Assembly: GCA_021432635.1 (NCBI GenBank)
Contig: MU270058.1
Coordinates: forward strand, 310,001-374,000
Length of the DNA stretch: 64,000 nt
Origin: Thozetella sp. PMI_491
Taxonomy: Eukaryota > Ascomycota > Sordariomycetes > Chaetosphaeriales > Chaetosphaeriaceae
Reading direction: 5' to 3'
Below the pieces are notes generated by a model. That model was not told the origin of the DNA. It did no database searches and saw only the letters and a program-made list of their open reading frames with translations. Shown here one piece after another: positions 20,975 to 58,507 of the stretch (position 1 is its first letter; each line of letters starts with the position of its first letter). Both the position numbers and the translations under genes were made by a program.

Positions 20975-21019
20975 CTTTTAAAAGCAGTACAGATGAGCTA
21001 GGCGAACTTACAAACGCTA

Positions 21020-21110
21020 CTTAGGAGATTCCGTTCTTATTTGCTTCAGGGCTCCTTTGAAGTGGTGATTTTGTTGGAGGATTCTATTCTTCTTTGCTTC
21101 AGGGCTGCCA
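21020..21110 (+). repeat. direct repeat in the retroelement leader
   Basis: Two diverged copies, about 21022-21053 and 21074-21107, share GGAxxATTCxxTTCTT and TTTGCTTCAGGGCT. They lie just after the 5' LTR and before any coding remnant. Confidence 0.55.
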
Positions 21111-22889
21111 ACGATTACACAAACAACTATCTAGAGCGTATTATAAGCACCATAACCAGCGCCAGCTAACGATATAAGGCATTATTCTTACTATATCAGG
21201 ACCTCGTTAAAAAAGCACTAAAACAAACTAATACACCCACAAGCATAGTAGCTAGCACGTAAGTATATCAGCAACACACCAGAATACCGATAAGGAGTGT
21301 AAAGACACAGAGCTTACGGCGATACTTACTCGCCTAAAGCTCTAGCTCTAAGACCAAGATATTATAGATCAAGCAGTAGTCTTAAAACCACACCAGGAGA
21401 TCAATCTAGATACCACTCTAGCTAAGCTAAGGAACTCATAGGCTATATCCTAACTACTCAGCTACCACAACCTAGGGAAACCACCATATAAAAACAAACT
21501 ACTAAGCTACTTCTAAGAGGATTTTCAAAGCTAACAGATTAAAAACTTCTAAAGGCTAGATAAGCTAATTACACAAGCACTATACAGTTACCTATATAAT
21601 CATAAACTACTAGTAAAGCAAGCTACATAGCTCCCTCTAGCCATCACCCTCTTCAACTACACAATAAAGCAGTTTAAAGACAACAAGGACAAAAGAGCTG
21701 TTCCACAAATTATTCACCTAATTCTAAGGGTCACTCAAAGCTTAGCAAGCAGTAAAAGCTTAATCCTAACTAGGGACTAGTAAAGACCCCTAACAAGAAC
21801 GCCCTCGAGTCAGCTTCAACAAGAGAGCAGTTTCACACAAGACCAGGAGCAGGTACCAAACAATACAGGGGAGAGTAGAGCTCTAATTAACTAATCAGCT
21901 GCTCCAAACGTCCCTAAAAAGCCCTATAAACAACCCTTTAATAAACCAGACTAAGTTAAAATATCTATAATCTACTAGGATTAACCTGGTCGAAACAAAG
22001 GGACTAAGCATAGCTAATAGCTATTCTAAAGAGCTTAAAGATAGTAAGAAAGAGGATCTAACAAGCTTAATCCTTATAGCTAAGACTAGTTATTATACTA
22101 GACGCTTAGACAATAAGGATTCTAGAGATTGTAGAACATATATAACAGGTAGAATAACATGCCTCTAAATAACTAAGAAAGGGGTTTTAGTATATCTACA
22201 GCTATTAATAGAGACTAGTAGAACTAGGACTAGTATACTCTACCACCCCTAGTATCCCCTATTAAAGAGATTAATATAAGCTTGTTACAAGTATTTATAA
22301 AAATCTAGAAAGATAGAAATATATAGACTAATGCCTAGTATAATATCCTAGACTTTAAAGTTAGGCAGTTCTTACTATATATATAAAAGCTTAGGATCAG
22401 ACTATTATAACTCTATATAATCTTTAACTACCTATTAAAAGGAGAAGCACTATAATACTACCTATATTATATAAACCTTAAACAGCTATTTATAATACTA
22501 TATACCTAGATTAGACAACACTATAATATAAAAACTATATAAGCTTTATACTATAATAATTAAAGCTTACTAATGTTCTTAATCCTAAGAAAGAGACTAG
22601 AGATAACTAGAAAAAGTAAACTAAAGGTGTTATAAGTACTCTTTAACAAGCTATAGCTATACTAATAAGCTCTTAGCAATATATATAATATTAAATAGTA
22701 ACTAGTAGATATAACTTTAAGAGTAATCTCAAGAGTTAGAGAGCTATTAATAACACTTACAAGGCTAGAAAAGAGCTTTAAAGCACTCTATTTAACGCTT
22801 AGAAACACTCTATAGATTGCAGAGAATATATAGTTATCAACTAGGAAAAGCTTCTTTATAGATTAATAATTCTAACAGACAGGGGAGTG

Positions 22890-25800
22890 TTAAAAAGGCT
22901 ATAGAAAGAGCTTTAAGTACTTCCTACTAGACAATTAAAAATCTAGTATAAAATAAACCAGTAGATACTAGGTATGTAAAAAGAAAGGCTATTTCTTAAC
23001 AAACTATATAAAAAAGGATCAGGCAAAGGTAAAAGAGGATTAAAAGTATAACTAAGCTTTTTATAATAAGCTTAAAGAGACTTTCTAAGTATTCCTTATC
23101 CTATATAAAGACTTAATCTTAAAGACTATGTTTTACTAAGATAAAAATCACGACAAGGCTAATAGGAAAGCTAGTAATTACAATAAGCTTTTTAAGAGTA
23201 ATAAGAGTAATTAAGAAAGTAGTTAATAATATAAGATAACTATTTAACTCACTAGTATATTGTTTTAATATGTGTTACAAGCCAGAATAAGAGATACTCT
23301 GCTAATAGACTAGAACCTTAATCATAACAAGTATAAAACAAATGTTTTTACACTTGATTAATACTTTAAAGAGGTATTCTAGGGTATAATACTAGATACT
23401 GATATAGCTAAGAAATTAACCGCTAGGAGAAGCTAGTTTTAAATACTTTATAAGTAGATACTAAGGATTATACTAGATACTAGTAGAGCTAGGGAAGTAT
23501 ATATAAAGTTTAACAGTAGAGCTCTTATAAGCTTTATAGGAAGTATTAAACTAGATATACTGGTTAGCTAGGTAATATTCTATATAGTTAATATGCTAAC
23601 CCCTTTTCTTCTCTATTTAAGAGATATAGATAAGCTTAGGATAGAGCTATATAATATGTACAATAAGCTAGTAAGTGCCTTTAAAGTATATATACTAATA
23701 TATAGGAAATAAGGCTATATATAGCTTTACTTAGACAATCTAGGAGCGTAGTAAATAAATAGTCTAAATAGATTAAGTATAATATTCCTAACTAAGGCTA
23801 AGCTAAGGCATATTTATTTATAATTTAGCTACCTATCTATAGGGAAAATATATAAGTTCCTTAAGGAAGTAGGCTATAATATTAAGATAAGTACTTTTAA
23901 GCTTATAAACCACTTTTACTACTTTTACTAGACATACTAAAATATATTAAAACACTTTAAGTTCAAGCTATAAAAAAAAGCCAACTTTAACTATAAGATT
24001 TTAATAAATATAATGTATTTTAATAATAAACTAATACTCTATATAATCTATATAAATATAAGATTCTAGGCAGGGAGCTTCCTTATAGATATAATAGTTA
24101 AAACAATGTAGAAGACCTTAAAAAGGTGCTAGATAAATATATATCTAGGACTATTAGATGTCTTAACAACTAATTCAGGTACTAACTTTACAGCTAATTA
24201 TTTTAAAGCTAAGGCAAAGCTTATAGGGATTATATACTACTAAGTCCTAATAGAAGTATATAACTTAATTAGAAAGATTAAGAGGGTATATAAGATATTA
24301 AGGAGAGTATATAATATTATACTTATAAAGAGTAAAGGGAGTAGAGAAGAAGTATTATAAGCTACTCTTAGCATAGTAAATACTATGGCTAGACTAGACA
24401 GATTAATCCCAACCCTCTTAGTCTTTAAGGTATATCTATAAATCTTAATAGATTTACCCCCCTCTATAAGCTAGATTTAATACGTAAGAGCTTATAGTAA
24501 AGCCTTAATTAAGCTCTAGAAGATCTTTATAGACTATTAGATTTAGGAAGTACTTTATATATAGAATAGGCTAGATACTAAGTATATCCTGCTATAATTA
24601 TTAGCTCTTAAGAGTTTAGTACTAGTATAATATAAGGGCCTATAAGTATAGAAAGAACTATTTAAAGTACTTGTTATAACTGATAAAGACATTATTATAG
24701 AAATAATAAATAGACCTATTATATTTAAAAACACTATAATTAGGCTTTATAATATATAGAACAATTAGTTAATGCCCTAGGAGGAGAGTAAAGAAATGAT
24801 TACATTTAAGTATCTAGAATTATTAAAGCAATAAAAGCAAGGTCAACTAATAAAACAAGAGGCAGTTATACGCTAAGTAAAGGATTATAAAAACAGATAA
24901 GTTAATAAGTAGAGGACTTAAAGTAGTAAGATTGTTATAGTAGCTAACTATTAGACTAAAAAAGAGTAGTATAATTATAAAACTACTGTTAAGATATATG
25001 TAGCAGGGACTATTAAAGTATTAGGAGAGCTATTTAAGCTCTCTGATCAAGCTAAAATTAAGTCACTAATAGCTATAGGTATGATCAAGCTAATCACTCT
25101 AAGGCTAGAGCATAGTCAGGCTAGGATCTTCGGTTGCCAGCTCATTCGCAAAGTAAAAGGGCAAGGCACTAAGCGTCTATATGAAAAATCGCGTTTAGTC
25201 GCCTAGGGCTATAGCAACTATAAGAAGCATACTCTCCTTACCTAAACGCTAACAATCTTATGTTATAACTAATAACTAATCTTAGCACTTATACCAAGCC
25301 TTAGATAATAAGGACTTAAAGTCACGCTTAAAGATATTATATAAGCTTATACTTAGTCAAGGTCTAATCTCTAGTACACTATTTTACTATATTTGCCGCA
25401 CGAGCTATATAGTTAATACCCTTTAAACACTATTTTAAAAGTAATAAAACTACTTTATAGGCTTGTAAAAGTAGGGCTGTATTAATTTATAACATATAAT
25501 AAGTACTATAAAAAGCATTTAGGGATAGAAACCTTTAAATATAATCTATATCTCCTAATTATAAAAGTAGGAGAATTATTTAGTATAATTAATTTATAAA
25601 CTAATAATATTATTAATATTAATAGCTTAGAGTTTCTTAGAAAAAAGGAATTAAAGCTTTAAAGAATAGGTTTTAAAGCTAAACCAAGATCATTAATAAA
25701 TCCTAGGTTTATAAGAAACTTTAATAGTTACTACCTTAAGATTAATAAGGACTTTATAATAATTTATTAAAAGGGCTAAGTAGGTAGGCTTGAGCTGGTA

Positions 25801-26530
25801 GACTTTAGCTTAGAGAGTATAAAAAAGTAGTATATAAAATAGAGAGTATAAGGCGCTTATATCGCTTTTATCTACTAGTTAGAGGCAGTATTTAACTATA
25901 TTATAGCTACTTAGGAGCTAGAACTAGGGGAGTAGTAGATCGAGAGGCTTAATAAGTATATTACCTAGCAGATCTATAAATAGTTAAGAGGTATCTACTA
26001 TATAAGCCTTAACCTAGATACTACTAGGTTATATATTTTTATAAATAAATTATTTATTAATAATAAGGACCTTAGTTTATAGATTAGATTTATAATTATT
26101 TTAAGGAATAAGAGCTCCTTAAAGTACTTAGAGAGCTTTGAGCTAGTTAGAAATATAATACACTAGTCTTTAACTAAGTATAAGTATATAACATATAGTA
26201 TTCTTACCAGTAAGATTTACAGTATAAGTTCTAGCTTTAATATTGGCTATATACTCAACTATACACTTAAAACAATCTATAATTACCTATAGATAAAAGC
26301 TCTAGAGCTAATAGTTTATATAGATTTACACTTGCTATATTAATACTTAGTATAATTAGAAAGTATAGTAGAAAAGTACCTTATAATTAATCTTATAGCT
26401 CTGAGGCAGTCTTATAAAGCTTGTAAGATCGCTAAAATCAGATAAATAAATAGAAACAATAATCTAGCTAATACAATAACTAAAGAAGCACCCAATAGTA
26501 TATTAAAAGCATTTATATTGACAAATAAAG
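22890..26530 (+). pseudogene. copia gag-pol remnant
   Basis: Fragments can be read across many stop codons. Near 22960-23010 a nucleocapsid-like VCKKKG knuckle remains. Near 24100-24450 an integrase core reads LDVLTTNSGTNFTANYF and then IPTLLVF. Near 25180-25640 reverse transcriptase reads SRLVA.GYSNYKKHTLLT, LPHEL, and VIKLLYRLVKVGL. Near 26310-26510 RNase H reads VYIDLHLLY and LIALRQSYKACKIAKIR. Gag upstream of 22890 is too degraded to delimit. Stops arise mostly where CAG or CAA codons would be expected, in line with RIP. Confidence 0.85.
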
Positions 26531-26794
26531 CTTTATTTTATATTAAAGGCTAGGTCTAACGCTCTTAAAAAAGAAGAAAAGTCAGGGAAAGAAGTATAGG
26601 GGAGAGTATAAGGAAAGCATAGGAAAGCAGTCAGGAAAGCAGGGGAAAACATATAGAGTATATAAGATTAATTCAGGGAGATATGTCCCCCAGCGACTAG
26701 AAAAGAGTAAAACGCTACCCTAAACACTAAAAATAAAACAACAACGATCTTATAGGGGCAGGAATAACAGCACGCTAAGCCAGGCAAAGGCCCT

Positions 26795-27320
26795 TTAGCC
26801 AGCAGTAGCCCTCTCCTCCTCCGTTATAGCCTCCACAGCTACTTCCTCCTCCCCCTCCTCAGCTAAGCACAACAACCCCCTAACCATAGGGCACTAGTAG
26901 TTACTCTCCTAAGCACTAATTAACCAATCAATAAAACACTAGAGTATATAAATATATATACTACTTACTAAAGGGTCGATATCAACCACAAGCACATATA
27001 GGAACCACTTAGTAGCAGCCTAGGCAATTACTAGACTATATATATAATTAGTACACCCAATCACAGTTTAAGAGCTTAAAGGATTATACATAGTAACACA
27101 GGAGTGCCTAAAGGCATAGTAAAAGTAACAGTCGCCACCACGGCCAGGATCCTTATAGCAGCTATACCTGCCATCCTTACCCGTAAGGGCGCTCTTTAAG
27201 CAGGGCAGGCACTAGCTCTCACAAGCTAGGCCAGCCGCACTCTAATTGCATAGAGCGCGCCTAGCACCATAAGTAGAGCGCCGACCGCCCTTAGCAGTAG
27301 CCTTCTTCTTCTTAACTACT
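26795..27320 (-). pseudogene. antisense Cys-rich coding remnant in the retroelement
   Basis: On the minus strand, 3' of pol, a coding-like stretch reads a basic start (KKKKATAKGGRRSTYGARRALC), then CLPCLKSAL, and GKDGRYSCYKDPGRGGDCYFYYAFRH. It later ends in an acidic tail (AEEGEEEVAVEAITEEE). Stops interrupt it. Spaced CxxC and other Cys residues suggest a small metal-binding protein. It resembles Cys-rich proteins I associate with fungal repeat-borne genes, but I cannot name the family. This part is richer in GC than the pol region. Its start and end are approximate. Confidence 0.5.
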
Positions 27321-27810
27321 ATACTACTTATTAACACTTATAACCACACAACCAAAAGCTCGTAAGTACTTACCACGCTTGGAAGGTATGGTAAATATTG
27401 GTTTATTATCTAGTAGTGCTCTATTAGTCCTGAAAACACTAGTAACTAATCAAGTAATCTCACTGTTGTTGTTGCTGTTACTGCTGTAGTTATTGTTAAG
27501 GCTAAAAAGGAAAGGGGTAAAAATAATGCGGCAAGCTGGCAAAACAGTCCCTTATATAATCGTGGAAGCAGCTATAGCCGATTTAAGAGCGTTTTCCTAC
27601 TGTCCTTACAGCTATTATTCATTACTTATTATTCCTATTGTTCTTATTATTCCCCACTTTTCCTATAAAGCAGCTGTTTTACTATTGAGAGCTCAAAGGA
27701 GCATACAAAGAGCTGTACAACAAAGCAGTGATCACGTGAGAGCTTAGTATGCTATTTTTGGAATAAAATGCTTTCAACAAGCTGTGTTGAGTAATCTAGT
27801 TAAGCGCTAT

Positions 27811-27825
27811 GAAAAGAAAAGAGAG
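27811..27825 (+). other. polypurine tract
   Basis: GAAAAGAAAAGAGAG is an unbroken 15-nt purine run four bases before the 3' LTR, where plus-strand DNA synthesis of an LTR element is primed. Confidence 0.75.
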
Positions 27826-27829
27826 CCTG

Positions 27830-28084
27830 TGTTGGATCGTGGGTTTGTAGCGTTGCTCGATCTAGTATGGAGGATCCAGAGCTCTGACAAGCTCTGATTA
27901 GACCACAGCCGATCTAGTGCGGAGAGTCACATGATCGGCTGAGGGCCATTTAGGGGCTCGTTCGAGCAGTCAACTTAGCTTACAGAGAACACATCTAGAC
28001 ATATACCAATACAGAGGATCTTTTACCCAGTTGTTTTACGTTTGTTTGTTTTACAGTACCGAGATCTCGTAATACTAACCAACA
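27830..28084 (+). repeat. 3' LTR
   Basis: 255 bp, TGTTGG to CCAACA, same length as the 5' LTR. The four differences from it are C/T or G/A; three fall at CpG and one at a TpG/TpA site. Confidence 0.95.
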
Positions 28085-32090: not shown

Positions 32091-35000
32091 ATGGCTGAGC
32101 CTGTTGGCATCGTGTTGGGAGTGCTCGGTATCTCGGGACTCTTTACGGCGTGCATTGAAAACTTTGATATTGTCGTCAGAGCCAGGAACTTCGGGGAAGA
32201 GTTTGACTTGCTATGTACCCAGGTACGTATTGCCATTGTATGAATCTGTAAGGGTTACTGACAACCCATGAACTAGCTTTCACTCCAGAGGCTTCGCCTC
32301 GTGCTCTGGGGAGAGACGTTGGGTTTGGTTCCCGACCCGGACGGGAAACGAAAACCTTACAACAGCGCAGTCGACCGTGCCGATATACGGCCTGCCATTG
32401 GATCGACTTTGAACCACCTCCGCTTACAGCTCGAAAAGGCCGATGTCGTCACTGAGAGATACAAGCTCGGCGACATCGTATCAGGAGAGCCTTGCCAGGC
32501 TTTACAGATGTCTAATTCTACCGGTTTGAAGATTTTCAGTGAGCGATTCGAGGCTTTCACGGCCAGGATTCGAAAGAATCAGAAACAAAAGTCGGGATGG
32601 ACCGTAACAAGGTGGTCGATACACGATGCGAGCAAGTTCAAAGCTATTGTCGACAACATCAGGGATCTGATAGACGACCTAGAAAGTGTTGCGTCCACAC
32701 TTAGAGTGTTGAAAGATCAGCAGAGTCTTCTTGTTCAAGAGATAGAGTCAATATCGGACGAACAAAGCCTGCGTCTCCTACAGGACGTATTTTCAACGGC
32801 CGAGGATTCGCGTTCTTCCCGAGTCGTGTCAGATGCTGCAAGCCATCGGCTCGGTCTTTTGAAAGATTCAGCAACAATAGAGGCCAGAAGATCGAAGTTC
32901 ACTGGAGATAGCCAATCGTATTACACAGCTCCATCTCAACTATCAGAACTAGAAGAACAGCCAGGCAACCAACAAGATCAGCATCGAAGCTTGCATCCGG
33001 CTTGGAATAAATGGGATCTAAAGGTCAGGCCAACTCAGGACGGAATTAATATACAGACAGCCGAAAAGCCTCCGGAGGCGGCTCAGAAGATTAGCATGGA
33101 AGGAATAAAAAATAAGACCCAGAAACTAGAAGGGAAACTAGCCCTTGTCGACGCTACACCCCAGAATCAGCGCTACATGGCGGCGGTGATGGCTAAATCG
33201 ATGTCATCAGCACCAGAATTGCACTTCGATTCTGGTGAGTTGCTTTATGGCACTCTAATGTCCAAGGTTAAGACGAAAAATGACGAGGATTGGAGTCGCC
33301 GATCTACTTCCCTCATTGTGGCGGCTGACCAAGGAGTCTCGTTAGCTCGAAGAGTCTTCCTAGAGCTTAGGAGCATCAGGAATGCCGGGGTACCTTTTAT
33401 CAGTGCCACTACGATCGAGGATTCCCTCGATAAGATACTGGCCAGCATTGAAGGCCCCCCAGACACACCTTACGAAGGTGGAATTTTCTGGATCAGTGTC
33501 AAATATTCGGATTCGGTTTCACCACCACTTTTACATTTCGAGACAAGGATCTATCATCCAAACATCGACTGTAACGGCAACATTTGTGCTGACTATCGGC
33601 ATTGGTGGAGCGATCCAAGTCTTCAGAGATATATGCGCTCGTTTTTCGAACCCACTCGAACAGCATGGTTCTCAGAACAAGCATCGAATCATTACTCGCT
33701 TGGTGCTCTCCTCACAGCGTTGTGTGGTCTGCTCGCTAGCCCCAATGTTCAGGACCCTTTGGTGCCGGAGATAGCAGAGACGTATATTATCGACTTTCCA
33801 AGGTACTACGAGGCAGCGAAGCATTATACTCATAAATACCCCACCGGAGATAGACCCAAGGTCGAGAGTCTCAAGTCGAGGCTGATTTCTAATGATGACA
33901 ATGCCTTGATTGATCTTAAGCCATTTACCGCTAGATCATCGGAAACACCATCTTTGAAAGCCATGAACGGAGACACCAGGTCAGCTCTGGAGCAGGAACA
34001 GAAGATCGGTGGGGCTGAATCTACTCATGCCGGCTTGCCTCTGGAGAATCGCTCAAGTGAGAGGAGGGAGAACCGATTCTACGAGGAAGAGTCCAAGACT
34101 GAACGCGTGTCCCTGCGAGGGGCCACATCGCCGAGTGCTGATTCCACTGCCAGCTCTGACGAGAAACCACGCTTCACGATATTATACCGGACTGAATATC
34201 CAATGAGAAAGCGTGGTCTTTTGACAGTCGATCTCGGAGATTCACATGGACTAAGGCCATGTCGGAAGCCCGTCGCGGTTGTAAGCTTCCAAGGGAGCGA
34301 GAGACTCGTATGGGGGTCGACGGTGACTCACAGGGCACCAGCTACATCCAGACGGTTCAAGCTAAACCCTTTCCGTCGCCGCGGGGCAGTTTCACCAAAC
34401 TACCGGATTCAATGGGAATCATCAGTCACCTTGTGAGTAGCGACGACGTTCCAAAAGAACCCTAACGCTAATACTTCAATGGTGATATAGCGACGTATGT
34501 TTTCCGCCTTCTCGTCTCTCCGTCACGCTTTGGGACTTCGTCCAGCAAGACGAACATGAGGTCAGATTTATTGGATATGCCAAACTTGATCCCATATTGC
34601 AAACGGAAATGAGAACCTCCGAGTACATTCAACTCGTTGCGCACCTGAATGTGACCGAAGAAGTCACCGGTGAACTTTTCGTGGGGACTTACTACCAGGA
34701 AACAAGTCATACCGGCGATTGCCACGAGTTTCACAAGGGAGAATACGTAAACCTCCTTCCCTCAAGAAATAAAAACAGCGGTCAGATTTACGCGGTGAAA
34801 CGAATGGTGATTTCTGAAATAAAAATTCCAAGGGACCTCCAAAAAAAGACTGGCTCTCCACATCTTGAGGTAGTCCTCGGCCTCACCTCTCCATCTTCGC
34901 CTTTTGTTTTGAATATTAAGTTTGCATTCTACGTTGACCGTAACGCCTACCTATTGGCAGACTATGCACGAGATGAGTTTTCAAATTCCGTCGACGGATT

Positions 35001-35550
35001 GGGGCATTTCAATGAATTTGAAGCAGCGTTCTACACAGCAGAGCTCGCTTTGGCTCTCGAACACCTCCACAGCCACGATATCATCTATCGAGAACTCAAA
35101 CCAGAAAATATCTTCTTCAATTTAAATGGGCACTTGCGTATTAGCGACTTTGGGCTACGCCAAGCTTTCAGCGGGAAGATTTCTGAGTATGTGGCACCAG
35201 AGCTTGTAGAGGACAGCCTATATGCTGGAGAGAGTCCCGACTTTTGGTCCCTAGGATGCTTTGCCCTCCATATGCTCCTTGGTCGCTCCCCATTCGGGTC
35301 GGAACTGGAAGCGGAGCTGAGATATAACATCCTTTACCGCGATCTGCCACTGGGGGAGATCGAAATATCGAGTCTCACCCAAGATTTCATTCGGAAACTG
35401 CTGGAGCGAAGCCCGAATGACCGTCTGGGGTCGGATGGGGGGTTTGACGAAGTGAAAAAACATGCTTTTTTCCACATAATAATAAGCTGGGAAAAACTCT
35501 CCGAACAGGAATTAAGAGCCCCTTTCGCGCTCGACTACACACGGAGATAA
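32091..35550 (+). CDS. HeLo - E2 ubiquitin-conjugating - C2 - kinase-like fusion protein
   Basis: Exons 32091-32222, 32277-34432 and 34491-35550 (introns 54 and 58 nt, GTACGT and GTGAGT donors) give 1115 aa. Residues 1 to about 220 match the HeLo domain (MAEPVGIVLGVLGISGLFTACIENF, then RLRLVLWGETLGL), the membrane-active or signalling domain of fungal cell-death proteins. About 400-566 is an E2 fold: helix RRVFLELRSI, EGPPDTPYEGGIFW, then HPN at 471-473 and NGNIC with the candidate catalytic C481, and a typical end (DPLVPEIAETYI). About 676-830 is a C2 domain (GLLTVDLGDSHGL, SVTFDVCFP, RLSVTLWDF). About 840-1105 is an AGC-like kinase with K866 (YAVK), DFG at 982-984 and DFWSLG. The catalytic loop reads YRELKPEN, with E964 where Asp is expected, and the glycine loop is degraded. 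C2-kinase order recalls Sch9. The joint function is unknown. Confidence 0.88.
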
Positions 35551-38880: not shown

Positions 38881-39372
38881 TTGGAGAGGAGGTTTGAATT
38901 CGAAACGACGGAAGATGAATACCGCAAGGCAGGCGTTGGTAGATACTACCCCCCTTCATAATTCCTTCTGGCAAGGATATAGAGGGGGAGGTGCAGGCTA
39001 CGGTGCTGTTTTTTGGGAGGAGGAGGGAGGACCCGGGTAGAAACGATAGGGAGTATACATGAGCCCAGCTATCGGTATTAAAATAGAATCAGTAATCACG
39101 TCTTGTATTGCGTTCCATAGGATCCCTTCCAAGCTTAGGAAATGGTATATTAAACCAACTGAAGGTATGATGACGAACTTCTAATCACGATTGCGTGCAG
39201 CTTCCCGACGGCCCGACTGGCCAAGTGGAGGAATAGGGGACTAGCCAATAACAAGCCGGAGCCTAATGCAAGCAGTTGACAACCCCGCCCATGGGCGCAT
39301 CCGGTTGTGACCCCTTTGGCACCTGATCTAGCAGAGTCTGTAACGTCTCTTTCAAGCTCTCAATCAAGCAAA

Positions 39373-41841
39373 ATGAGGCTTATACACACTGAAGCCCTGC
39401 AGATCGAGTCATTTACTGGCTCCGTCCCCAGTTATGCCATCCTGTCGCATACCTGGGGCTACGAGGAGGTGCTGTTTGAAGATCTGCACGGCGGCAGCCT
39501 CGAAGTCGCACAGGCAAAGTATGGTTTCGCGAAACTGAAAGATAGTTGCTCACAGGCCAGAAAGGATGGATACGACTACATCTGGATCGACACCTGCTGC
39601 ATTGACAAAAGCAGCAGTGCAGAGCTTTCCGAGGCCATCAACTCCATGTTCAAATGGTACAGGGCCGCCCAGGTGTGCTATGCTTACCTCTCGGATGTCA
39701 GCGTAAACAATTCTGTCTGGGACTTTGAAAGAAGTAAATGGTTTTCCAGGGGCTGGACACTGCAGGAGCTGATTGCTCCGGACCAAGTCGAGTTCTACGA
39801 CCAGGCTTGGAACAAGATTGGAGAGCGAAATTCGATGGCCGCCCTGCTCGCCCGGATCACCAGCATCGATAAACAGGTTCTCTCCAGAGGCGGATCAGGA
39901 GACTGTGCTCACTTTATGATTCTCACGTCCGATATATCCAGGACATGTCTAGACTGCGGCGCGAACCTCTCGATCGAAGGGATTCTGGCCTCGTATAGCA
40001 TTGCTACGCGACTAGGATGGGCGGCCAGCCGAGTAACGACTCGCGAAGAAGATATCGCTTACTGTCTCCTGGGGATCCTTGACGTCAACCTGTACGTATA
40101 CACCCGATGAGAATACGCAGGAACATGAAAGACTGTAAGGCTGGGCTAAACCGCTCTACTGCGCTAACATGACGAATTCTAGGCCACTTTTGTATGGCGA
40201 AGGCAAGAAGGCTTTCATCCGACTTCAAGAAGAACTTATACGGACATCATCGGATCAGTCCATCCTCGCGTACAGCGAGCCCGGATACACCTCAACGAGC
40301 ACGTGGGTGGACCCTTCCGGCCCCTCACTAGCAACAAGCCCCGCCCAGTTCCGCCTCCCATACCAGATAGAGGCCGGTGACGGCAACTTCGCGATAAGTA
40401 TAAGCAACCAAGGCGTGACTGTAGACCTTCTCATGTGTCCCTGTATTCTCAGAGACGAGAAAGATCCTGAACCAGCTACACCTAGGTCCGATGTGGGATT
40501 CCGCGACTGGCTCGGGGTTCTTGATTGCAGTGTGGATGGAAGCCTTCTGTCTCGGCCAGCGCTCCTTCTTGAAACGACAAGTATTGGACAGAATACCTTT
40601 CAGCGAGTCAAGGGCAATGCGGTAGTCAAGTTGATGCCCCACAATATCGCGGCTAATGGGGCAGGAGGCAAAATTACGGCCTGGCATGGCTTTACGCCCC
40701 GAATGAGTAAGGATCCAAGCCTCCTTCCCGCGTCCAACTCCAATGCGCTTATGACGGAAAGCCTGAGTTCGGTACAAACACTTTACCTAACCGCTGTAAT
40801 AATTAACGGCTAATCATCTGCTTATTAGTCCATTTCTATCCGCAACTTGCAAAGCGAAAAACCATTTGTTTACGGCCCGGCGACAAGCCTGATGATCGCA
40901 AAATGTCGCCTTTTTTGCGCGTTATACAGACGTATACGCGAAGCCACAGCCACCGCCTGTTTGCCTCCTACCCGCCATTCTCGATTAACAACCTTGGAGA
41001 ATCCCAGATGGGCCGGCGAGAATACATGATATCCAGCGTTTCGCGTCCAAACAATCCCCAGATCTGTGGGGTTTTATATCTTGCCGTGGTAGCCCTTGGC
41101 CGTGTGGTATCAGGAAAGTTCGGGGTGTTCATCCTGTGGGGCTTAAAGACAGGGGCTCGAAATCAAGAGGAACTTTTGAGCTCGCCCAGTATGGACATGG
41201 ACCCCAGGGGGGTCGCAGTCCTTAACAGCAGCAACCCTGAGCTCACACCTAAGGATGCTATTGTATCCGCCTCTATTACGAAGGAAAAAGAGGAGAGTGC
41301 GGGTGACCCCGCAACGGCTGCTGACAAAGAACCAACTGGTAAAAAACCGGGCGGAAAACCGGTTGGCGAAGAACCAGTTGGTGAAGAACCGGCTGGTCAA
41401 GAACCGACTGACGAGCAGCCCGCTATTAAGGAACCGGCTGGCGGGGAGCAACCTAGCAAGGAACCAAGTAGCCAGAAACAGACTGGCAAGAAACCAGCTC
41501 GCAAGGAATCGACTGGCAAGGAGCTGGTTGGCAAGGAACAAATAAACGCGTGGTGCGCAATCGTGGAGTGGGATGACTGCCTCACAGGTACCATCGACCC
41601 AGACCATCTCAGCTCCGAGGTCTTGGGATCCCTAGCGGAGAAACTACTAAGCGTAAATGGTCCATTTATGTCGCTTCTGCCCCCGTTGGAGGAAAGAGTG
41701 CATAAAGACAACAAGGAAATTGTCTTCAAGCGGATGAAGACGCAACTGACCGTGGAAATTCGTCCTTGTAGCTTTCTTGGCAGGGATTATTATGAACTTC
41801 TCATCAATACGGACAGAAAGGAAGGCGGTACGGTTATATAA
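39373..41841 (+). CDS. HET-domain (heterokaryon incompatibility) protein with repeat tail
   Basis: Exons 39373-40091, 40183-40795 and 40888-41841 (introns 91 and 92 nt) give 761 aa. The HET domain starts at the N-terminus: MRLIHTEALQIESF, YAILSHTWG, then YIWIDTCCIDKSSSAELSEAINSMF and WFSRGWTLQELIAP, ending with LLGILDVNLPLLYGEG across the first join. HET domains are linked to programmed cell death after non-self recognition. The second join is less certain but restores the region TRSHSHRLFASYPP that HET proteins carry further on. Residues about 592-663 are 14 imperfect five-residue repeats of the type P-x-G-K/E-E. The last 100 residues return to a globular pattern. With no acceptor at 40887 the protein would stop at 40813 after 449 aa. 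Confidence 0.85.
41330..41545 (+). repeat. 15-bp coding minisatellite in the HET gene
   Basis: About 14 imperfect 15-bp units of the type GAACCGGCTGGTAAG encode charged, Pro-rich five-residue units. Third-position differences between units show it is not newly expanded throughout, though some neighbours are close to identical. Confidence 0.85.
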
Positions 41842-55036: not shown

Positions 55037-58000
55037 CTACCTTAACATCTCTTCTCGCGCCCACTGGTCGTCACTGTGCCCCCGCACCGTCTTTAAGTAC
55101 TTGTTGAATGCACCAGATGTCTTTATCACCTGGCTGAGGTGCTCCCAGTCGAGCCGCTCCTTTCGATGCTTGGCCAACTGGCGCGCAGTGAGCAGAGCGT
55201 TTCGGATCTGACGACCGTTCATCTCTTCCGCAGCCAGGTCGTCGAGGCGGCGCTCCAGCTCGGCCATGTTGGCGTCCTCGTCGGTCGACTCCTCGATCAT
55301 GTCGAAGAAGTTGCGCCAAATAGCCTTACGCGACTTCTTGGTTAGGTTGTCATAGTGTATCGCCACCTGGATGCGCGACTTGAAAGCCTCGTCAAAAGTG
55401 CCCACACGGTTCGATGTTAGGATAAGAATTCCTTCGTAGTACTCCAGGACACGAAGGAACACTAGAAGCAGCGTGTGAGTAGCTCGTCATGCGTCGAGAC
55501 GGCATTGATGAAGAGGCCGTGGACTTACCCGATACCAAACTGTTCCTCTGCAGATCAGCCATAGTTCTCTCCTCCAGGAACACGTCTGCCTCGTCCAGTA
55601 ATAGAACTAATCTATTGTCAGCTATCCTCACGGTATAAATGCAAGTTTTCCACATACCGCTATCCCATGTCTTTCCGAGATACAAGACGGTTTCGAGATA
55701 CCTCTCAACATCCTCTGCCTCGGTTCCGATATCTCCACAAGTGACACGGTATAGAGGCTTCTCTGCAATTTCGGCAACGCTGTTTGTATGGCTTTAGTAC
55801 TGTTTCATTTAATCACATGTACAGAGAGGTAGAGAAGAGACGTACCTCTCTGCCGTGAGAGTCTTGCCAGTCCCTGGACTTCCATGTAGAAGGATGATCA
55901 GGCCATTCCCCTTGCCAGTGATAATATCGTCCATCTTTTTTGTTGAGGTCTGCACATTGATGAGAGCGTATATCATTTCTTTCGTTTTCGGGTCTAGCAC
56001 GAGCCGATCGAACGCCTTCTTGTTCCAGTCGACAGGATGAAACTTTTCCACCTCAAGTATCACTAAATATAAGGAGGTTAGCCATTCGCCGCATGTTGAG
56101 AAGCTGGGTAGGCCACTACATACCCCATTTCTTATCATGGAGGTTAAAGCCATGTATAGTTGTGGGGAGAAGCAATTCGGCTTTGGGAGGGAGCTCCTGA
56201 TGGCGACTGATCTTCATAGGCCACCGATCGTACTTGGCCGACTCGTTCCGTTCGAGATCGACGACGGGTGATGAGCGATGTATGAGCTGGTATGTCGCAA
56301 CGTCCACCATAAATCTCGCATTGTTCTATATGTGAAACATCGAGGTTAGTGCGCCCCATGCTAGTTCGCGGTAGAATCTGAAGATGTCACCGTACGTAGA
56401 AGTGATCATGAGCTTTGTCCCAGCCAGTGTAGCATCTTAGCGTCTGGCCTCTCATATCCCAGAACTTTTTGCCCCGTGCTTCCAGCTTCTCGATATCTTC
56501 GCTCCGTGCGTAGGCGACTGGGTGGATGGTAAGATCCGAAATCGGCTTCTCTTCCTCCACCGTTGCCATCTTCCCTTCCCAATCCCGCCTGTGCAAATCG
56601 GCGCCATTGTACTGCCAAGCCCAGCCGTACATCTCAACCTTTTCTCGTTTCGGGTATATGTAATCCTTAAGGACATACGCCTCGAGATGGTTACCATCTT
56701 TGCGGCTGATCACCATTTGGTTGGGCTTGAAAAGCTTTCCAATATGATGAGCTGTAATCTTTCCTTCTTGGAAGAGCTTTTCTGCCTCGTCGTACTCGGC
56801 CTCGTAATTTTCGTTGATAAACTTGAGTAGTGGTTCAACAACCGCTGCGTACATCTTATGCTGAGCCAATTCTGCTAGTTTCTTGCGATGATGAAAAAAG
56901 AAAGGGTAGGGGGCGTCCATCTCCTTTGGGGCATCCGCGACGTCTCCCATGCCGCTCTTGTATACCGGAAACTCGGCAATGTAGCTGAGAGCCTTTTCCA
57001 GAAGGGGAGATACAATCTGCATTCGCTCGCCCCTCTCTGAACAGCCACTTTTATCGCCCCAAACGCGACGGACTCGCGTGCTAGTCGACCTGGATGACGG
57101 CTTCATTTCGCAGTTGTGCTCTTTAAAGATGATGGTACAAACATTCGGGTGGCGATTTAGGTACGCGCCTATGTGCAGGACCCTCGTCTTCGCTGAGAGT
57201 CCCGCGGTGCTATTATTTAAAAGGTTGTGATACGTTGGCTCATCCTCGTAAATGGCCCTGTGATGCGAGTGAGAGTTGTTGGTGCAGAAAATTCGATGCA
57301 AGGTCCGGAGACTTGGAGGTTGCTCGACGACATCGTCTTCGGAATCGCTCTCGGAATCGCTGCTGTTAGAACCTGCTTTATGGTAGTTGACTTGGCCCTC
57401 CAGCATTTGAATCGTGTCAAGCAGATAGGAGATAAACCGTGAGACACCTTGGGTGTCATCGAGGACATCAATATTTAGATGCTTCTCGGCGACGGCGCTC
57501 AGTGCTTCTGCGAGACCAACTTCCATAGGGGGGTGATTTGAAGGTATGATTCCAGTATTTGCACGAAGGTCAGAAGCACTGCTGCTCGCCGCGTTGATCT
57601 CTAGGCTTTCTATGGTAGCTGAATTGGGTGCATGGGAGAGACCAGAATGCGTTTTCTGCTGCGCTGCAACATCCTCAACAATCGTAGAGGATGTCGCTTG
57701 CAGGTTGCCGGAAGGACCTTGTTTTATATACTCATGGCTGCTGTCCGGCGCGGCTTCGTAGCCGTCAGTCAACCCGCGGGGTGCAATACTAGAGCTAGAA
57801 TCGATCGACGCCGTTGTCATAGCCTGCGCTATATTCAGATCCGAAGGTGTTTCCATCTCGAATACGGCTGGTTGTTCTGCTGATGGAAGACTGTCTGTAG
57901 CGAGTCCTCCGTGGTTCTGAGTAAGCAGAGAATAACGGCGCCTCGCCATTTTCTCACGCCACGCGAAGTGTTTGGTGGCTTTCCTTGTGGGATATTTGGT

Positions 58001-58390
58001 TGTGTCCCTAGGATGGCCACCCGATACTATAACAGGGCGCGCTCCAGGACGCATTCCGGGGTGTGTCCCAGGACGCATAGCCCCCGGTGGCAGCGAGCCT
58101 GGACGTGGCGCGATCGGTGGTGTCCCAGAGGGTGAGCCCCGGCCCATCCAGCCAGGGCCAGACGGAGGCCGGGCCCCCCAGCCAGGAGGAGGCGGAGGGC
58201 CTCGACCACCTGGCATCGGGAAGGATGCCGCGACTCCCCGGCCAAGGCCAGGGTTTAGCACTGGGAGCGGTGCTTGGTTTCGAAGAGCTGGCCCCGCATT
58301 CGAATTGTTGAGACGGAGGCCTTCGACATCGTCAGCTAATCCTGCCGGGTTGGATCGTTCAATCACCGGCGCTAGGCTCACCATCCCCAT
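55037..58390 (-). CDS. DUF7025 - AAA+ ATPase
   Basis: Exons 58390-56396, 56325-56124, 56062-55846, 55779-55658, 55606-55529 and 55461-55037 give 1012 aa. The first 130 residues are Pro/Gly/Arg-rich low complexity, then a disordered acidic linker. The middle matches DUF7025 (EDEPTYHNLLNN, TRVLHIGAYLNRHP, MYGWAWQYNGADLHRR, then NNARFMVD after the splice). The AAA+ domain has Walker A GSPGTGKT, Walker B VLLLDEADVFLEER restored by the fourth splice, sensor region ILILTSNRVGTFDEAFKSR and a C-terminal lid (EMNGRQIRNALLTARQLA). Such proteins are common in filamentous fungi and uncharacterised; ATP-driven remodelling is inferred. The start is uncertain: an exon from 58676 to 58382 could join at 58341 by a 40-nt intron in matching phase, adding 82 residues with Arg-Ser-Asp repeats. 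Confidence 0.85.
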
Positions 58391-58507
58391 CAAACTGTTC
58401 TTTCATTGTCGATAGCAGTCCCCGTTGCTTGGTTCTCTTGCTAAAGGTGTCATCTTTCGAAATGGTCGAACTAATGAACAGGCGGGACATATCTCTGTGC
58501 CCACGCC

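Follow-up and report, generated by a model that had tools for sequence, protein, structure and literature searches.

The window analysed here is a stretch of 64,000 nucleotides (C44:310001-374000) from a genome of 72.3 Mb in 157 contigs; the nearest named relatives of its proteins, as found by protein search, are ascomycete fungi. Its forward strand carries at 32091-35550 a gene of three exons, which is predicted to encode a single protein of 1115 amino acids. In this protein a HeLo domain is followed by an E2 ubiquitin-conjugating domain and by a C2-kinase half, which is very probably a captured copy of the SCH9 kinase. The ATG stands at 32091, the stop codon ends at 35550, and the gene is arranged as follows.

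32091..32222, + strand: exon 1, the first 44 codons, with the hydrophobic N-terminal helix of HeLo; gapless from residue 1 against PDB 2wvo/2wvn (HET-S/HET-s)
32106..32780, + strand: HeLo domain, residues 6-212, with intron 1 inside it; Pfam PF14479 E 6.5e-42, PDB 2wvo E 5.6e-20
32223..32276, + strand: intron 1, 54 bases, GTACGT...TAG, inside HeLo
32277..34432, + strand: exon 2, the remainder of HeLo, a linker, the E2 domain and the first half of C2
33363..33824, + strand: E2 ubiquitin-conjugating domain, residues 407-560, with HPN at 471-473 and Cys481
34433..34490, + strand: intron 2, 58 bases, GTGAGT...TAG, phase 2, within C2; position and phase as in the SCH9 intron of this genome
34491..35550, + strand: exon 3, the second half of C2 and an AGC (pseudo)kinase domain, including the stop

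A preliminary description of this DNA had proposed a continuous frame over three exons interrupted at 32223-32276 and 34433-34490, and these coordinates were confirmed. With intron 1 fixed, the second interval represents the sole donor–acceptor pair that keeps the frame (donors at 34380-34469 and acceptors at 34440-34539 were tried), and exon 3 is open over 353 codons, the chance of which is about 1.3e-8 at the base composition of this exon. Since C2 extends across intron 2 and the SCH9 intron occupies the same residue in the same phase, the predicted union of exons 2 and 3 in one gene is well supported. Intron 1 was placed by its splice signals and by relatives, e.g., P0014, which read across the intron 1 point; a motif scan for the intron 1 stretch in the other HeLo genes of the genome gave no match. 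The union of HeLo, an E2 with HPN and C481, C2 and a kinase-like domain in a single protein, also suggested earlier, agrees with Pfam and with a profile of SCH9-type C2 domains, and the Pfam matches to HeLo, UQ_con and Pkinase are all above the curated cut-offs (6.5e-42, 4.9e-20 and 1.1e-35, respectively).

The HeLo match reaches 144.1 bits against a cut-off of 23.2 and covers profile positions 1-205 of 205. Residues 1-34 align without gaps to the HET-s chains and the position of the N-terminal helix is kept, for which membrane insertion can be predicted. In the same alignment residue 33 is Asn. In the passages of PMC10197012 on this residue, it is Pro in the inactive HET-s and His in the active HET-S (H33P); Asn33 of the predicted protein is different from this known inactivating state. 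Characterised HeLo domains function in membrane damage, as stated in an excerpt of PMC3531502. The chains 2wvo and 2wvn carry the PDB name SMALL S PROTEIN, and the part of PMC12881547 concerned assigns 2WVO to HET-S.

The E2 domain (PF00179, E 4.9e-20) has the HPN motif and a Cys at the catalytic position, as expected of the UBC fold, and a ubiquitin thioester on Cys481 is predicted. A family insert of about 20-30 residues follows the active site (about residues 487-516). The QWSPA loop of UBE2D and the Phe of its FKPP motif have a role in RING/HECT binding. The docking surface of the window E2 is non-canonical: HWWSDP and the insert stand where UBE2D reads QWSPA, and the Phe of FKPP is changed to Val (VSPP). 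Unlike the E2 enzymes of the UBE2D/Ubc4 type, this domain sits with its changed loop and insert in a protein of 1115 amino acids. A structure model of exon 2 gave predicted local distance difference test (pLDDT) values of 87-97 for the E2 core blocks, good HeLo helices, 50-70 for the insert and a disordered first half of C2; the VIA-align rows for this model lie mainly over the E2, the HeLo match not being among them. Across the family the columns LASIEGPP.TPY.GG, HPN...G.IC and DPLVPEIA are near-fixed. In an alignment of 57 rows, 30 of the 31 invariant columns lie from residue 369 onwards, almost all of them in the E2, and one in HeLo, where fewer could be counted because some rows have no HeLo start.

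The kinase domain (residues 846-1090, E 1.1e-35) has the AGC fold, and its closest PDB matches, within the best 60 of 1680, are the AGC kinases RSK, S6K, SGK, AKT, PKA and PKC. A profile of 25 SCH9-type kinases matches residues 756-1108 at 6.4e-66, although it was built from rows found by searching with this same C2-kinase half and is not independent of it. That search (about 8000 candidates scored) gave 573 matches, and precomputed Pfam shows neither HeLo nor UQ_con in any of the 120 listed. The C2 domain claimed in the preliminary description fared unequally: Pfam gave no C2 match in the whole protein at E<=1, while with the SCH9-type C2 profile it scored 1.3e-9 in a set of 119 family tails including the window's, the next tail having 0.39. 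This profile comprises 19 regions, namely 18 of the 22 chosen SCH9-type rows (the cropping pattern missed four) and the SCH9 of this genome; it was run against 119 of 121 tails, two shorter than 30 residues being dropped.

The genome's own SCH9 is located at C24:884898-885845 (-). Its C2 intron, also of phase 2, interrupts the codon six residues beyond a Trp (KWDAEAV-F-DV), and intron 2 of the window gene is in phase 2, six residues past the equivalent Trp (QWESSVT-F-DV). A second possible acceptor in SCH9, six bases upstream, also keeps the frame and leaves the donor unchanged. Identity of the window protein to this SCH9 is 36.5% in the kinase (260 positions) and 30.7% in C2 (140 positions). 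The profile matches and the common intron bear out the Sch9 likeness proposed earlier and make capture of an SCH9 copy the very probable origin of the C2-kinase half. Because the intron position and phase match those of the genome's SCH9, the half most likely arose by copying of genomic DNA, intron included.

The captured half seems to have lost the main catalytic parts of its source. The Asp of the HRD motif is replaced (YRELKPEN for YRDLKPEN, Glu964), and HKGEYVNL stands in place of the Gly loop GKGTFGQV. The activation loop, which in such enzymes is read by PDK1-type kinases, is shorter by nine or ten residues, including the Thr of TFCGT. The AGC C-tail and the hydrophobic motif are absent, the protein ending upstream of the C-tail; we followed the activation-loop and hydrophobic motifs of SCH9 as tabulated in the section of PMC10455444 devoted to them. 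The kinase half is probably a pseudokinase, likely catalytically dead, and because it looks like one, its role as an active signalling kinase appears unlikely. Compared to the SCH9-type kinases, with which it has in common the order of C2 and kinase and the C2 intron, the window protein is devoid of the catalytic Asp, activation-loop Thr, Gly loop and C-tail and is fused after HeLo-E2.

To place the core, a search with residues 400-860 (about 8000 candidates scored) gave 157 proteins, of which the 120 listed are considered here. By precomputed Pfam, 111 of them have HeLo together with UQ_con and nine have UQ_con only, while HPN..Cys is kept in all 120 and in the window protein; the best alignments to the window core have 43-69% local identity. 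Both domains were found at Pfam E<=1e-4 in 57/57 sequences of a sample composed of 56 relatives and the window exon 2. The database names are “prion-inhibition and propagation-domain-containing protein” and “UBC core domain-containing protein”, and the four named hosts checked belong to Sordariomycetes (two), Leotiomycetes and Eurotiomycetes. Precomputed accessions that we take to be ankyrin occur in four of the listed relatives and those taken as TPR in two; a kinase accession occurs in one, and C2H2 finger, DUF7896 and DnaJ in single rows. By its predicted domains, HeLo-E2 is a widespread family core with varied tails. The listed members with C2H2 finger, DUF7896, DnaJ, ankyrin or TPR tails are P0040, P0060, P0099, P0013, P0018, P0071, P0107, P0085 and P0101.

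Besides the window protein, the only kinase-tailed protein among the 120 listed is P0004 of Echria macrotheca (SCH9 profile 1.7e-16; next row 1.5). Its kinase is more degenerate, reading WNIKPGH at the HRD motif and NFG instead of DFG. The two proteins are identical at 63.9% of HeLo, 66.5% of E2, 33.3% of linker and 31.8% of kinase positions, which would fit a tail evolving fast behind a core that stays constant. A C2 domain in P0004, P0008, P0010 or P0014 obtained no profile or hhalign support (probability 0.1-0.4, with 74 control tails reaching up to 1.0). The preliminary description, which would have been refuted by the lack of any orthologue with the same domain order, passes by a narrow margin: among the listed proteins P0004 alone has HeLo-E2-kinase, its C2 is undetectable by sequence, and this protein is not the sister of the window's.

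In the kinase tree the window protein and P0004 group together; support for this grouping is weak (79/54) and the branches are very long. Deviations from SCH9 common to both amount to 18/89 against 5.4 by shuffling (0/5000 shuffles reach this number), although in a comparison of nine other AGC kinases with the window protein they proved not specific: P0191 has 12/57 against 3.5 (0/5000), and P0126 and P0196 have 15/84 and 15/75 (1/5000 each). In the HeLo-E2 tree, a quick tree with long-branch warnings, both cores fall into one 20-row group (Shimodaira–Hasegawa-like approximate likelihood ratio test, SH-aLRT, 91) but are not sisters; P0008 and P0010 are nearest to P0004 (100*). These two models end in “..ITL” and “..VML”, and the window exon 2 read into intron 2 ends in “..VTL”. 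Judging by eye, we suspect that both were cut at the same C2 intron and that a kinase exon may lie beyond it.

Within the genome, which has 22 HeLo places (some being exons of one gene) and 32 E2 places, a listed HeLo match and a listed E2 match stand together only at the window gene. Other possible E2 fusions are PF00179 matches at C4:1248068-1248337, C27:627067-627309 and C3:740263-740454, in open frames of 1208, 709 and 702 aa.

In the open-access PMC literature we found no account of HeLo-E2 proteins, and PF14479 and PF00179 occur together there in a single paper, as separate table rows; within this literature the family is apparently undescribed. The earlier statement that no system of the full architecture has been described holds for the same literature, but the HeLo-E2 core is a widespread family and not a one-off. 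The window protein has the same HeLo-linker-E2 core as its relatives, while 119 of the 120 listed have no kinase domain by precomputed Pfam. With HET-S/HET-s of Podospora anserina it has in common HeLo from residue 1 and the helix position; HET-S consists of HeLo and a prion-forming tail (PMC10197012, part consulted), whereas here the tail is the E2 and the SCH9-like half. Animal MLKL, the plant MLKL-like Pm13 and fungal HELL-kinase proteins, according to passages of PMC12881547 and PMC10951266, join an N-terminal killing domain of the HeLo/4HB type to a C-terminal kinase or pseudokinase, as does our protein; however, its pseudokinase is AGC/SCH9-derived with C2, the E2 is interposed, and it is not of the MLKL/RIPK lineage. 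K63 ubiquitylation of MLKL is listed as necroptosis-promoting in the relevant portion of PMC8817035.

A C-terminal copy of a conserved cellular kinase is also known in NOD-like receptors (NLRs) of Sordariales with an integrated CHK2/PRD-4-like kinase; an excerpt of PMC12258605 describes the CHK2-like C-terminal kinases of nine such NLRs as putative decoys. Here, in contrast, the core is HeLo-E2 and the kinase is SCH9-like rather than CHK2, and neither NACHT nor NB-ARC is among the four Pfam families matched at E<=1 in the window protein. As for the presumed source, Sch9 is enriched and activated at the vacuolar membrane and binds phosphatidylinositol 3,5-bisphosphate (PI(3,5)P2) through its N-terminal region, in the sections of PMC10455444 on its localisation.

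Several features of the surroundings should be mentioned. The HeLo-E2 gene is followed 3.7 kb downstream by a HET-domain gene at 39280-40107 (+) (PF06985, E 4e-16); since genomes of this kind commonly contain HET genes, it represents a weak sign of a defence setting. At about 21000-28000 the window has an AT-rich island (GC 0.32, TA/AT 1.70, (CA+TG)/(AC+GT) 0.61) typical of repeats mutated by repeat-induced point mutation (RIP), and TA/AT in the HeLo-E2 gene is 0.67. A DUF7025 gene (E 1.6e-11) is located at 56390-58402 (-).

We are highly confident of the predicted anatomy and of the SCH9 origin, and we think a role in cell death likely. The overall reading, to which we give about an even chance, is that of a single-protein, non-NLR, MLKL-like HeLo-E2 death executor gated by an SCH9-derived pseudokinase. 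A chain composed of HeLo, an E2 and a disarmed growth kinase is in keeping with such an executor supplying its own ubiquitin step, and its nearest functional parallels are HET-S, the MLKL-type proteins and the Sordariales NLRs with a CHK2-like kinase. At rest, the SCH9-like half would prevent activity of the protein, which may then sit at a membrane. A change in this half, caused for example by altered SCH9 regulators or by the binding of a foreign protein whose usual target is SCH9, would free HeLo, which would then oligomerise and damage the membrane by its N-terminal helix, as in HET-S and MLKL. The tethered E2 might ubiquitinate itself, neighbouring copies or local targets, setting a threshold or spreading the signal. 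As to the trigger, we favour an integrated decoy or bait, tentatively and at somewhat less than even confidence, because the half has kept its fold while losing the catalytic and the known regulatory sites, and because tails differ across the family. The HeLo-E2 core may be a defence protein. A broader proposal, which is speculative and rather doubtful, is that HeLo-E2 proteins form an undescribed, NLR-independent class of fungal innate-immunity receptors with an invariant killing and ubiquitin core and swappable sensor tails; here the SCH9 decoy would answer an attack on the TORC1-SCH9 growth pathway with ubiquitin signalling and kill the hyphal compartment.

A number of observations weigh against this reading. 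The “swappable sensor tails” rest on few recognised domains, since only 3/57 sampled sequences match further Pfam families (ankyrin, kinase and Rua1 in one member each, the Rua1 match being below its cut-off). P0004 has the sole other kinase tail among the listed relatives, and because a search with this Echria tail returned only itself among about 8000 scored candidates, the SCH9 tail is, as far as sequence comparison goes, rare or recent. The Echria kinase is 31.8% identical to the window's (233 positions) and 30.6% to SCH9 (248 positions); because it is no nearer to the one than to the other, the two tails may be separate SCH9 captures. The kinase half has kept VAIK Lys866, DFG and APE and may therefore still bind ATP or retain some activity; its alphaC Glu depends on the alignment (kept in one and lost in another). 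No link was found between the SCH9-like tail and any foreign protein, and multi-monoubiquitination of MLKL is listed as perhaps lowering necroptosis in the part of PMC8817035 that covers it.

Other explanations have to be compared with the gated death executor. The protein could be a nutrient or stress switch, in which the SCH9-like half binds the partners of SCH9 (TORC1-side regulators and lipids of the vacuole or plasma membrane) and frees HeLo or the E2 when growth signalling fails. Since the protein retains C2 and most of the kinase fold, the SCH9 partner surfaces could persist, and the enrichment and activation of Sch9 at the vacuolar membrane (PMC10455444, same sections) speak for this; however, the activation-loop Thr, the hydrophobic motif and the PI(3,5)P2-binding N-terminal region described in these sections are all missing, and the rarity of the SCH9 tail among the listed relatives better fits a fast-evolving sensor, so we regard such a switch as improbable. 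To an equal degree we doubt that HeLo merely oligomerises or anchors a membrane-tethered E2, whose ubiquitination of SCH9 partners or local proteins would not kill the cell. The concentration of the invariant columns in the E2, the catalytic motif present in 120/120 listed relatives and the family insert beside the active site would be expected from it, but HeLo is conserved too (57/57 sampled; 63.9% to Echria), the N-terminal helix is present, and those HeLo domains that have been characterised have a role in damaging membranes (PMC3531502, as excerpted).

A recent non-functional fusion or a decaying gene might explain why one other kinase-tailed protein is found among 120 and why the kinase half is degenerate. 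It is nevertheless very unlikely in view of the open frame of 1115 codons with usable splice sites, the intact HeLo and E2 motifs, the small chance of an open exon 3 (about 1.3e-8), the retention of VAIK, DFG and APE, and the gene composition, which is not RIP-like despite the RIP-like island nearby. Still less credible is a gene-model artefact with two adjacent genes read as one: while the splicing is predicted from sequence and the P0008 and P0010 models end near the exon 2/3 junction, intron 2 interrupts a single C2 domain at the position, and in the phase, of the SCH9 intron, and the deposited Echria protein is likewise HeLo-E2-kinase in one chain.

If the anatomy reflects the function, the window protein would unite a killing domain, a ubiquitin enzyme and a sensor in one fungal polypeptide and would represent a compact analogue of necroptosis, a process in which MLKL is one component and its ubiquitylation another. 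The HeLo-E2 family offers a ready natural set of tail variants, and the SCH9 tail, if our reading is true, indicates a specific and testable guarded pathway. In this case the capture of kinases, described for fungal NLRs in the excerpt of PMC12258605, would extend to a non-NLR protein.

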